Assembly (NCBI RefSeq): GCF_003752365.1
Contig: NZ_RJUO01000004.1
Location: 224,355 to 288,354 of the forward strand
Reading direction: 5' to 3'
Length of the DNA: 64,000 nt
From: Frondihabitans sp. PhB188
Lineage (GTDB): Bacteria; Actinomycetota; Actinomycetes; Actinomycetales; Microbacteriaceae
The notes under the pieces are model-generated. The model was not told the DNA's origin. It saw only the letters and a program-made list of their open reading frames with translations, and did no database searches. The stretch's first letter is position 1, and the number at the start of each line of letters is the position of its first letter. The position numbers and the translations under genes are program-made. This document shows, one piece after another, positions 2,558 to 4,622 of this stretch.

Positions 2558-2707
2558 GTCGTCTGGTGCCGAGTGCGTGGACTCCGCGGCCCGAGGCATC
2601 CCGGGTCGGTGCCGGGGCGGATCACTCGACACCCGGCCGTCAGGGCGCTACGGTGAAGTCCCGACAGCGAGACCAGGCCATTCGAGGATCGAGAAGAGGT
2701 GAAGACC

Positions 2708-2767
2708 ATGACTGCATCGATGACGCGCGCCATGAACCCCTTCATCCCCGAGGTCGCCGTCCGCTAG
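2708..2767 (+). CDS. Putative 19-aa leader peptide upstream of RIO kinase
   Basis: A short ORF begins with ATG at 2708 after a purine-rich ribosome-binding site (gagaagaggtgaag) and encodes MTASMTRAMNPFIPEVAVR, ending at TAG 2767. It lies 36 nt before the RIO kinase start and its last codons overlap the first arm of the alternative hairpins described next. The first five residues, MTASM, match as far as I recall the opening of leader peptides of msr-type ABC-F resistance genes; this may be chance. Expression is not shown by the sequence alone; conservation across related genomes would decide. Confidence 0.5.
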   Translation: MTASMTRAMNPFIPEVAVR

Positions 2768-2804
2768 CAACGCTGCTGGTGACCTCTCTTCTGGAGATCA
2801 CCAG
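2750..2804 (+). promoter_or_regulatory. Alternative hairpins sequestering the RIO kinase ribosome-binding site
   Basis: Arm 2 (2776-2786, CTGGTGACCTC) pairs with arm 3 (2794-2804, GAGATCACCAG) at 10 of 11 positions, with a 7-nt loop. Arm 3 overlaps the ribosome-binding GGAG (2793-2796) and the G of the GTG start. Arm 1 (2750-2758, GAGGTCGCC), inside the end of the leader ORF, can instead pair with 2778-2786 (9 bp including one G-U). This gives two mutually exclusive folds, as in translational attenuators. Function is inferred. Confidence 0.5.
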
Positions 2805-3646
2805 TGACCTTTTCCGACGATTTCGTCGTTCCCACCTTCTCCGTCGCCGAGATCGGCGACGACCAGCGCTGGTCCACGTGGCCGGCCACCCAGCCGCTCG
2901 AACGCGGCCCGCAGCCCCGGCCCGACTGGCTCGTCACGGGCGCGGCGGCCATCGACACCGAGCTCGGCATCGTCAAGACGGGCAAGGAGGCTGACGTGTT
3001 CCTGCTGGAGCGCGCGGTTCCCGACGACGTGACGCTCGCCGACGGCAGCTCGCGCACCAGCGTGCTCGCCGCGAAGCGCTACCGGAGCGCCGAGAACAGC
3101 GACTTCCACCGCGGTGCCCAGTACCGCGAGGGGCGCCGCACCCGTAACACCCGCGACGGCCGGGCGATGGCGCGGGGCTCTTCGCACGGCCGGGCCGTTC
3201 AGGCCGGGCTGTGGGCCTGGGCCGAGTTCGAGGCGCTCTCGCGCATGTTCGAGCGGGGCGTGCCGGTTCCGTACCCGGTGCAGATCTCGGGCACGGAGAT
3301 CCTGATGGAGTTCATCGGAGACGGCCGCACGGCCGCGCCCCGGCTCGCTCAGGTGAAGGAGGACGGCGCCGCGCTCTGGCCGCTGTTCGAGCAGGTGAGC
3401 GAGATCCTGCTCGGGTTTGCCCGGGCCGGCTTCGCCCACGGAGACCTGTCGCCGTACAACCTGCTGGTCCACGACGGACGAGTGGTCGTGATCGACGTGC
3501 CGCAGCTCGTCGACGTGGTCAGCAACCCGAACGGCGTGGCCCTGCTCGAGCGCGACTGCCGCAACGTCGCCGACTGGTTCGCACGACGCGGCTTCGAGCG
3601 CGATCCCGAGCAGATCTTCGCCGAGTGCCTGGGCGAGGTGTTCTGA
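2804..3646 (+). CDS. RIO-family atypical serine protein kinase
   Basis: RIO kinases are small atypical kinases/ATPases. In archaea and eukaryotes they act in ribosome maturation; the bacterial role is poorly defined. This 280-aa protein shows the ATP-binding region (GKEADVFLLE near residue 60), a lysine segment (LAAKRY), the catalytic loop HGDLSPYNLLV near residue 211 and the RIO metal-binding signature IDVPQ near residue 226. The start is GTG at 2804, 7 nt after GGAG, and that site lies inside a hairpin. It is flanked by its own leader ORF and by nadK on the opposite strand, so it is probably monocistronic. Confidence 0.92.
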   Translation: MTFSDDFVVPTFSVAEIGDDQRWSTWPATQPLERGPQPRPDWLVTGAAAIDTELGIVKTGKEADVFLLERAVPDDVTLADGSSRTSVLAAKRYRSAENSDFHRGAQYREGRRTRNTRDGRAMARGSSHGRAVQAGLWAWAEFEALSRMFERGVPVPYPVQISGTEILMEFIGDGRTAAPRLAQVKEDGAALWPLFEQVSEILLGFARAGFAHGDLSPYNLLVHDGRVVVIDVPQLVDVVSNPNGVALLERDCRNVADWFARRGFERDPEQIFAECLGEVF

Positions 3647-3695: not shown

Positions 3696-4622
3696 CTAGT
3701 GCTGCCGCGCGAACCGCGCGCGCACCTCCGGGGGCACCAGCTCGAGCAGCTGGTCGGGCCGCAGCGGGAGGTCCATCAGGCTGAGCTTGAGGCGCCCCTT
3801 GCGGCCGTGCCGCCCGGCATCGACGCGGGCCACCACGCCGGCGTCCTCGCGGAGCTTCACCTTGATGATGGCGCCCTCGCCGACGTCCGAGACCACGCGG
3901 CCGTCGAGCTCGAGCGCCGCCGAGCGGGTGCCGGCCCCGATCGTGAACTTGAGGAGCTCCTTGGGGCCGAGCACGACCGTCCGGTCGATGCCGGCCATCG
4001 GGGCCACGGGGGTGACGACGACCGCAGCGACGGCGGGGCTGACGACCGGGCCGCCGGCGGCGTAGTTGTAGGCGGTCGAGCCGGCAGGAGTGGAGACGAC
4101 GATCGAGTCGGCCTTGAAGTAGCCGTACGGGGTGCCCTCGACCGCGAGGTCGGCGGTGACCACGCCCTGGCCGGGCCGACGCGTGACGGAGAGGTCGTTG
4201 AAGGCGAGGAAGGACGTCTCGAACCCCGTCGACGAGACGGTGACCTCGACGGCGTGGTGCGGCTCGAGGGAGAAGTCGCCCGATCGGAGGGACTCGAGGG
4301 CGTCGGCGAGTTCCTGCGGCTCAGTCTCGACCAGGAAGCCGACGTTGCCGTAGTTGACGCCCAGCACCGGGACCGGACGGGGCGCGACGAGCCGCATCGC
4401 ACCGAGCATGGTGCCGTCGCCGCCCAGCGAGACGACCGCGTCGACCCGCTCGACGAAGGTCGGCTCGTCGACCAGCTCGATGTCGGCGCCGACCCGTGCG
4501 GCGTCGTCGTGGAGGGCGATCAGGTGCGCTTCGTCCGAGCCCTGCCACGAGCGCAGGACGTCGATCGACGCGGTGACCGACTTCGTGGGGTGGGGGATCA
4601 AGCCGACCGTGTAGTTCGCCAT
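3696..4622 (-). CDS. nadK: NAD kinase
   Basis: Phosphorylates NAD to NADP using ATP or polyphosphate; cytoplasmic. The 308-aa product has the diagnostic GGDGT motif at residues 67-71, GVNYGNVGFL, the NDLSV segment, and the glycine-rich STPAGSTAYNYAAGGP stretch that builds the NAD site. The ATG at 4622 follows TAGGTT by 6 nt with no Shine-Dalgarno sequence, so the transcript is probably leaderless. It lies convergent with the RIO kinase gene and divergent from clpC. Confidence 0.95.
   Translation of the reverse strand: MANYTVGLIPHPTKSVTASIDVLRSWQGSDEAHLIALHDDAARVGADIELVDEPTFVERVDAVVSLGGDGTMLGAMRLVAPRPVPVLGVNYGNVGFLVETEPQELADALESLRSGDFSLEPHHAVEVTVSSTGFETSFLAFNDLSVTRRPGQGVVTADLAVEGTPYGYFKADSIVVSTPAGSTAYNYAAGGPVVSPAVAAVVVTPVAPMAGIDRTVVLGPKELLKFTIGAGTRSAALELDGRVVSDVGEGAIIKVKLREDAGVVARVDAGRHGRKGRLKLSLMDLPLRPDQLLELVPPEVRARFARQH

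Follow-up and report, generated by a model that had tools for sequence, protein, structure and literature searches.

The analysed DNA, hereafter the window, is a stretch of 64,000 nucleotides from Frondihabitans sp. PhB188, and a gene for a RIO-type kinase is located on its forward strand, downstream of a sigma-factor gene (1469-2512) and next to a gene on the opposite strand (3696-4622) that we take to be NAD-kinase-like. The window protein contains the motifs HGDLSPYN and IDVPQ. In an alignment of the kinase with 14 relatives, HGDLS, YNLLV and D231 were invariant, and the RIO catalytic HGD (H212, G213 and D214) and the metal-binding D (D231) all fall in invariant columns. Among solved structures the kinase comes closest to RIO3, archaeal Rio1 and human RIO1; a structure model of the kinase (mean pLDDT 63) was used solely for listing the nearest folds. 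Judged from its sequence, the window kinase is a RIO domain protein, for which kinase or ATPase activity linked to the small ribosomal subunit would be expected. We know of no function of actinobacterial RIO proteins. Among the papers listed by searches of the open-access literature, none was found to assign a role to actinobacterial RIO kinases or to report an attenuated bacterial RIO kinase or a leader before one, in keeping with the initial annotation, to which no attenuated RIO kinase in bacteria was known. That annotation had also described a 19-codon ORF with its own ribosome site and three arms upstream of the kinase, and all of these are present. The features of the locus are as follows.

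2626 to 2631, forward strand: possible -35 element TCGACA, read by eye and tentative.
2649 to 2654, forward strand: possible -10 element TACGGT, read by eye and tentative.
2696 to 2702, forward strand: leader ribosome site GAGGTGA, a 7-nt anti-SD complement match, 5 nt before the ATG.
2708 to 2767, forward strand: leader ORF MTASMTRAMNPFIPEVAVR, 19 codons and a TAG stop (2765-2767), with equivalents in relatives.
2750 to 2758, forward strand: arm 1 GAGGTCGCC, within the leader at codons 15-17.
2776 to 2786, forward strand: arm 2 CTGGTGACCTC, which can pair with arm 1 or arm 3.
2793 to 2796, forward strand: ribosome site of the kinase (GGAG), separated by 7 nt from the GTG.
2794 to 2804, forward strand: arm 3 GAGATCACCAG, covering most of the GGAG and also the opening base of the GTG.
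2804 to 3646, forward strand: RIO-type kinase, 280 aa, GTG start, Pfam RIO1 E 9.7e-36.

The arrangement TCGACA - 17 nt - TANNGT recurs in L003 and L004 of the same genus; a consensus promoter scan at the window leader called no promoter. No intrinsic terminator was found in the leader by a consensus scan of 2480-2860, which makes transcription attenuation of the whiB7 kind unlikely. Behind the sigma-factor gene, a 16-bp inverted repeat with a 5-nt loop was seen by eye at 2522-2558; it lacks a long T run, was left uncalled by the terminator scan and may terminate the sigma-factor transcript. In an Rfam scan of the window only tRNA, and no other family, reached the threshold.

The conservation of the leader was examined in relatives. 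The kinase was matched with E < 1e-60 in 52 of 299 genomes of the family (Microbacteriaceae); in a sample of 396 genomes from the phylum, 30 had a match with E < 1e-39. A leader was present in all 50 genomes examined of the 52, with G149 as one more and G114 outside the count. The main set consisted of 73 family-type loci, 30 from the family genome set and 43 named loci, and 65 distinct loci were left after 8 identical or near-identical rows had been taken out. L007 was dropped as a weak match, and L022, left out of protein alignment A2 for wrong coordinates, was retained in the leader analysis. A leader ORF of 14-24 codons, starting with ATG or GTG and preceded by a ribosome site, was found in 73/73 loci, and its stop lies 30-66 nt from the kinase start (29-76 nt with the further loci described below). 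The loose rule behind this count (ribosome site of 4 nt, ATG or GTG start) also let through 20/136 genes of a control set sampled from the window together with 110 loci. The strict test (ATG start, ribosome site of 5 nt) was passed by 67/73 RIO loci against 3/136 control genes, and a strict leader together with both pairings was found in 56/73 RIO loci against 0/136 controls. This control set was widened from a small first set of 43 genes (4 passing the loose rule, 0 the strict one).

Seventeen further loci of the same family, tested after the rules had been fixed and not independent of the first set by descent, had the leader in 17/17. Of the later-fetched loci, 26/29 passed the leader rule, the misses being L174, L175 and L194. 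Among the family loci of this set 18/20 passed, and both misses are repeats of loci with leaders already seen, L174 and L175 corresponding to L063 and L067, which passed the looser rule; these two repeats and L185, a repeat of L068, are not among the 17 further loci. In L065, L071 and L041 the leader is shortened to 14 codons and stops no later than the position that arm 1 usually takes. In L065 and L071 the stop was seen by eye to overlap with the GAGG of arm 1, and trimmed duplex tests were without significance (p 0.615 and p 0.135, respectively); L041 has no significant arm 1 (p 0.935). A Microbacteriaceae-type kinase leader, without the WhiB7-type box described below, was seen in L036, a record titled Aeromicrobium sp. 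9AM, which is either a mislabelled genome or a gene transfer. The fraction of T-ending codons in leader codons 2-8 (109 loci) was 0.20, about four times that of the kinase body (0.052). Because the kinase's own codons 2-8 show a similar level (0.22), this excess probably reflects low structure near starts.

Both alternative pairings were analysed, in the window and among relatives. In the window, arm 2 and arm 3 form 10 of 11 pairs by eye, and the local hairpin, in which the whole GGAG is paired, has an energy of -16.1 kcal/mol (z -3.1). The arm 1-arm 2 duplex of the window was stronger than 200/200 shuffles. The free fold of 2695-2830 was unremarkable (z -1.57; 12/200 shuffles equally stable), and in it arm 1 pairs with the kinase start, not with arm 2. 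The kinase start at 2804-2815 (GTGACCTT) resembles arm 2, and same-genus relatives begin TTGACT or TTGACC. Hairpin energy alone is not unusual, -13.5 being reached by 22% of 130 control starts. When each of the 65 distinct loci was compared with its shuffles, the arm 2-arm 3 hairpin reached significance by itself in only 29 loci and the arm 1-arm 2 duplex did so in 54; at least three of the four bases of the kinase site were paired in the local fold in 64, with varying partner bases. In the 17 further loci, the kinase site was paired in 17/17 and the arm 1-arm 2 duplex was significant in 16/17.

The arm 1-arm 2 helix was paired in 90.7% of cells across the 65 leaders, against at most 59.4% with a slid partner. 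Two-sided changes were found in 5 of its 9 pairs (13 cells), a number reached by 7/500 shuffles, and its covariation score (0.219 vs 0.166) was reached by 0/500. When arms were swapped between loci, the arm 1-arm 2 helix lost about 2.2 kcal/mol of stability (z -7.2) and the arm 2-arm 3 helix 1.9 kcal/mol (z -8.2), each with 0/10000 permutations; the corresponding values in the 17 further loci were 5/5000 and 0/5000. Since shared ancestry inflates such permutation tests, we give more weight to the control with a slid partner, to the two-sided changes and to the 17 additional loci. One pair of the alignment, C-G in each of the 61 rows where it forms, is changed on both sides in L173 (GAGGCT with AGCCTC) and likewise in L189 (GAGGCG with CGCCTC), and in L050 and L082 a kinase site GAAAG is accompanied by a matching change in arm 2, all as read by eye. 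The two helices proposed by the initial annotation, arm 2 with arm 1 or with arm 3, are thus supported by the swap tests and by the duplex and hairpin of the window.

An exact three-arm pattern, which misses most RIO loci and is therefore a partial test for the element before other genes, gave 30 matches in the 299 family genomes; 13 were RIO loci, 13/13 with a leader, and 17 were non-RIO places, 0/17 with a leader. In viral contigs there were 32 pattern matches, none of them a relative. In L095, L102, L104 and L048, the leader's own ribosome site was seen by eye to be complementary to later leader codons, as in L095 for GAGAGGAGGCG with CGCCTCCTCTC. Swap tests of this possible fourth arm gave 0/5000 in both sets, and it was significant alone in only 6/65 and 5/36 loci.

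The reading phase was kept together with the arms. Arm 1 was located by rule in 81 of 90 loci (73 + 17) and is in phase 0 in 77 of these 81, though the leaders span 14-24 codons; the stop ends 15, 18 or 21 nt past the first base of arm 1 in 76/81. Insertions and deletions in the leaders are mostly frame-preserving. As read from the alignments, then, the locus has a leader ORF with a kept frame and two alternative helices that covary, and the comparison of arms and frame among relatives which the initial annotation had called for bears out the layout that it described. We hold with high confidence that the leader and its competing arms are under selection in Microbacteriaceae, and translational attenuation at the kinase leader is likely.

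The effect of a ribosome on the leader was modelled by equilibrium folding, in which leader bases are hidden by the ribosome at set codons and kinetics are ignored. Averaged over the 73 loci, the accessibility of the kinase site was 0.158 for the ribosome-free leader. Placing the P site at codons 5, 8 and 10 gave 0.143, 0.168 and 0.181, respectively, whereas codon 12 gave 0.046 and the stop codon 0.053. The drop falls where the ribosome reaches arm 1, and in 65/73 loci accessibility was higher for a ribosome at codon 8 than for one at the stop. The gain was 0.115 for native leaders against -0.001 (sd 0.003) when the 3' part of the leader was shuffled, and the native gain lay above that of the locus's own shuffles in 64/73 loci. 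The window itself showed a smaller change, 0.09 vs 0.03, and even its open state was modest. In the model, access to the kinase start depends on the ribosome position on the leader, as had been proposed from the sequence of this locus. Because modelled access falls once arm 1 is covered, a leader translated to its end is expected to shut the kinase site, and arrest at an early codon or failure to initiate is expected to open it; the closing of the kinase site by a covered arm 1 is purely a modelled effect.

We favour, with fair confidence, the reading that the 5' leader of the RIO-kinase mRNA contains a translational attenuator of three arms that closes on leader completion. When ribosomes reach the end of the leader, arm 1 would lie inside the terminating ribosome; with arm 1 occupied, arm 2 would base-pair with arm 3, and this would close the ribosome site of the kinase. 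When leader ribosomes arrest within about the first ten codons, or do not initiate, arm 1 would be free to pair with arm 2, the kinase site would open, and the kinase would be made when translation is impaired. This sign, in which a finished leader closes the kinase and early arrest opens it, is somewhat favoured by the modelling. We infer that the switch operates in cells, that it has this sign, and that its signal is generally impaired translation rather than one drug.

Leaders were also looked for in 37 loci from actinobacterial groups outside Microbacteriaceae, which include Kribbella, Nonomuraea, Streptosporangium, Nocardioides, Tessaracoccus, Georgenia and Kitasatospora. A leader ORF was present by the loose rule in 36/37, with 6/34 control genes passing, and the strict rule (ATG, 5-nt site) was passed by 33/36 outside RIO loci vs 0/34 controls; L103 has no leader by the outside-loci rule, though a candidate ORF is listed. 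The leader overlaps the kinase start in 25 loci and does not in 11. In the model, the overlapping class was most closed without a ribosome (0.074), reached 0.23 at codon 12 and opened with ribosome advance, and the 11 non-overlapping loci showed a weak effect (p 0.032 for the difference between codon 8 and the stop, p 0.46 for codon 5). A single sign for both leader geometries was rejected on the different behaviour of the overlapping class, and the mechanism is therefore not extended to the overlapping class. Short upstream ORFs with ribosome sites were seen by the loose rule in L196-L200, which are distant RIO genes in the phylum.

Upstream of the leader, the pattern [AT]AA[AT][CT]-N3-TTGC was found in 27 of the 36 outside loci, which are unevenly spread over genera, against 1 in 568,876 background bases, the pattern having been set after by-eye reading of the upstream regions and being looser than the published GAAAWY. 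A -10-like hexamer accompanied the box at a fitting distance in 24/36. The box resembles the WblC/WhiB7 site, which PMC7157823 describes as a GAAAWY sequence located 3 nt ahead of the -35 element. The loci that carry it are the following.

L070, L072-L080, L083, L085, L087-L089: WhiB7-type box upstream of the leader (first part).
L093, L095-L099, L101, L102, L105, L107, L110, L111: WhiB7-type box upstream of the leader (remainder).

The box was found in 0/73 family-type loci, window included, and in 0/9 later, more distant loci; near misses were seen by eye in L195 and L197. By these counts it is common in several groups and not universal. AT-hooks mark WhiB7. Two WhiB matches were found in each of seven family genomes scanned, and the AT-hook motifs searched for were present in 0/14 of these matches; in three outside genomes, for which weaker WhiB matches were fetched, there was one RGRPRK AT-hook each. 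The WhiB7-type promoter makes ribosome stress the leading signal, with support independent of the RNA evidence, and the absence of the box from 9/9 later distant loci slightly lowers the chance of general translation stress and of the wider proposal given below. The ribosome stress put forward in the initial annotation as a candidate signal thus gains from the 27 outside loci and loses from the distant ones, and we consider general translation stress as the signal to be evenly poised.

The leader peptide bears on what the switch reads. The residues of codons 2-12 were unprotected: 89/699 changed codons were synonymous (0.127 vs 0.204 expected) in 134 overlapping, non-independent pairs, and in 21 independent pairs 18/81 were synonymous (0.22 vs 0.204 expected), again showing no protection. 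A mild N-terminal preference was present, with Val at position 6 in 44/65 family leaders, hydrophobic-x-Val at positions 4-6 in 37/65, and Val or Ala at position 5 in 35/36 leaders outside the family; the window genus is without the Val-6 pattern. Since the phase is kept and the residues drift, the simplest reading seems to be that the RNA reads ribosome passage, not peptide residues. The start MTASM had been likened by the initial annotation to msr-type resistance leaders. MefAL is MTASMRLR and arrests via an Arg/Lys-x-Arg/Lys motif, according to PMC10314930; this motif is absent from the window leader and occurs in 2/73 family leaders (L002 and L005, both of the window's genus) and 3/36 outside leaders. 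The likeness to macrolide leaders was rejected on the missing motif and on the relatives, as same-genus leaders begin MTASNES, MTATREK, MIATREK, MIATSVK and MNAASVK.

It is accordingly unlikely that the leader is a drug sensor of the erm, mef/msr or ABC-F style, in which a specific antibiotic arrests the ribosome on a particular nascent peptide with the same arms in use. The arms would serve any early arrest, and the weak N-terminal preference and the WhiB7-type promoters of many outside loci would suit such a sensor, but unprotected codons 2-12, a rare arrest motif and a window genus that departs from the Val-6 pattern speak against it. Translational coupling, by which ribosomes ending the leader would melt the arm 2-arm 3 hairpin or re-initiate and so turn the kinase on, is a more doubtful explanation. 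In its favour, 30-66 nt separate the leader stop from the kinase start in the 73 loci, and a ribosome that terminates the leader would in some of them reach the first bases of arm 2; however, the distance from stop to kinase varies over 29-76 nt where that from arm 1 to stop is 15-21 nt in 76/81 loci, and coupling leaves no role for the selected arm 1-arm 2 pairing. A structured 5' leader read by a protein or ligand, with an incidental short ORF, is very improbable, because the start codon with its ribosome site, the phase 0 of arm 1 in 77/81 loci with the stop just behind it, and an Rfam scan of the window in which only tRNA reached the threshold outweigh the unprotected residues and the 14-codon ORFs of L065, L071 and L041.

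The attenuator that closes on leader completion leads to a wider proposal, which we offer tentatively and as a possibility short of even. The actinobacterial RIO kinase may be a ribosome-distress effector, placed in several groups under a WhiB7-type promoter and under a leader gauging ribosome travel; in Microbacteriaceae, which seem to lack WhiB7, the leader would act alone, and translation, not one drug, would be read. If this is true, the kinase would be a bacterial parallel to the eukaryotic RIO proteins acting on the 40S subunit, and two independent translation-stress controls would converge on one kinase. A kept attenuator and a stress-type promoter in several groups would be a strong hint of when the kinase is needed. 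The element would also be an attenuator with a peptide that can drift almost without constraint, and would in this way separate translation sensing from nascent-chain drug sensing.

In erm attenuators, control follows an arm logic with mutually exclusive RNA arms. The erm/mef/msr systems resemble the RIO leader in combining a leader peptide with mutually exclusive arms, and the downstream gene being off without drug is counted as a further likeness (PMC10314930). MefAL and ErmDL have the Arg/Lys-x-Arg/Lys motif that the RIO leader is missing, and mefA and msrD are controlled by transcription attenuation (PMC10314930), whereas the RIO leader is without a terminator by scan. The RIO leader further differs in that its peptide drifts and the kinase is not a known resistance gene. 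The toiL-topAI system of E. coli (PMC12121999) shares with the RIO leader a short uORF and a hairpin over the downstream ribosome site, and its signal, many translation inhibitors, is like that inferred here. In toiL-topAI the arrested ribosome itself breaks the hairpin between uORF and ribosome site (PMC12121999), whereas the RIO leader has a competing third arm within its ORF, which ribosomes would have to leave uncovered. The genes controlled are a toxin-antitoxin system in the one case and a kinase in the other. The whiB7/wblC leaders are likewise actinobacterial, uORF-controlled and linked to antibiotic or ribosome stress; whiB7 uses a rho-independent terminator and an anti-terminator, whereas the RIO leader hides a ribosome site (PMC10727445, PMC7157823). 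The WhiB7-type promoter box is shared as well, being present before the RIO gene in many outside loci. For the kinase itself, Rio1 and RIO3 are sequence relatives, and by the titles of the structures both RIO1 and RIO3 have been solved on small ribosomal subunits.
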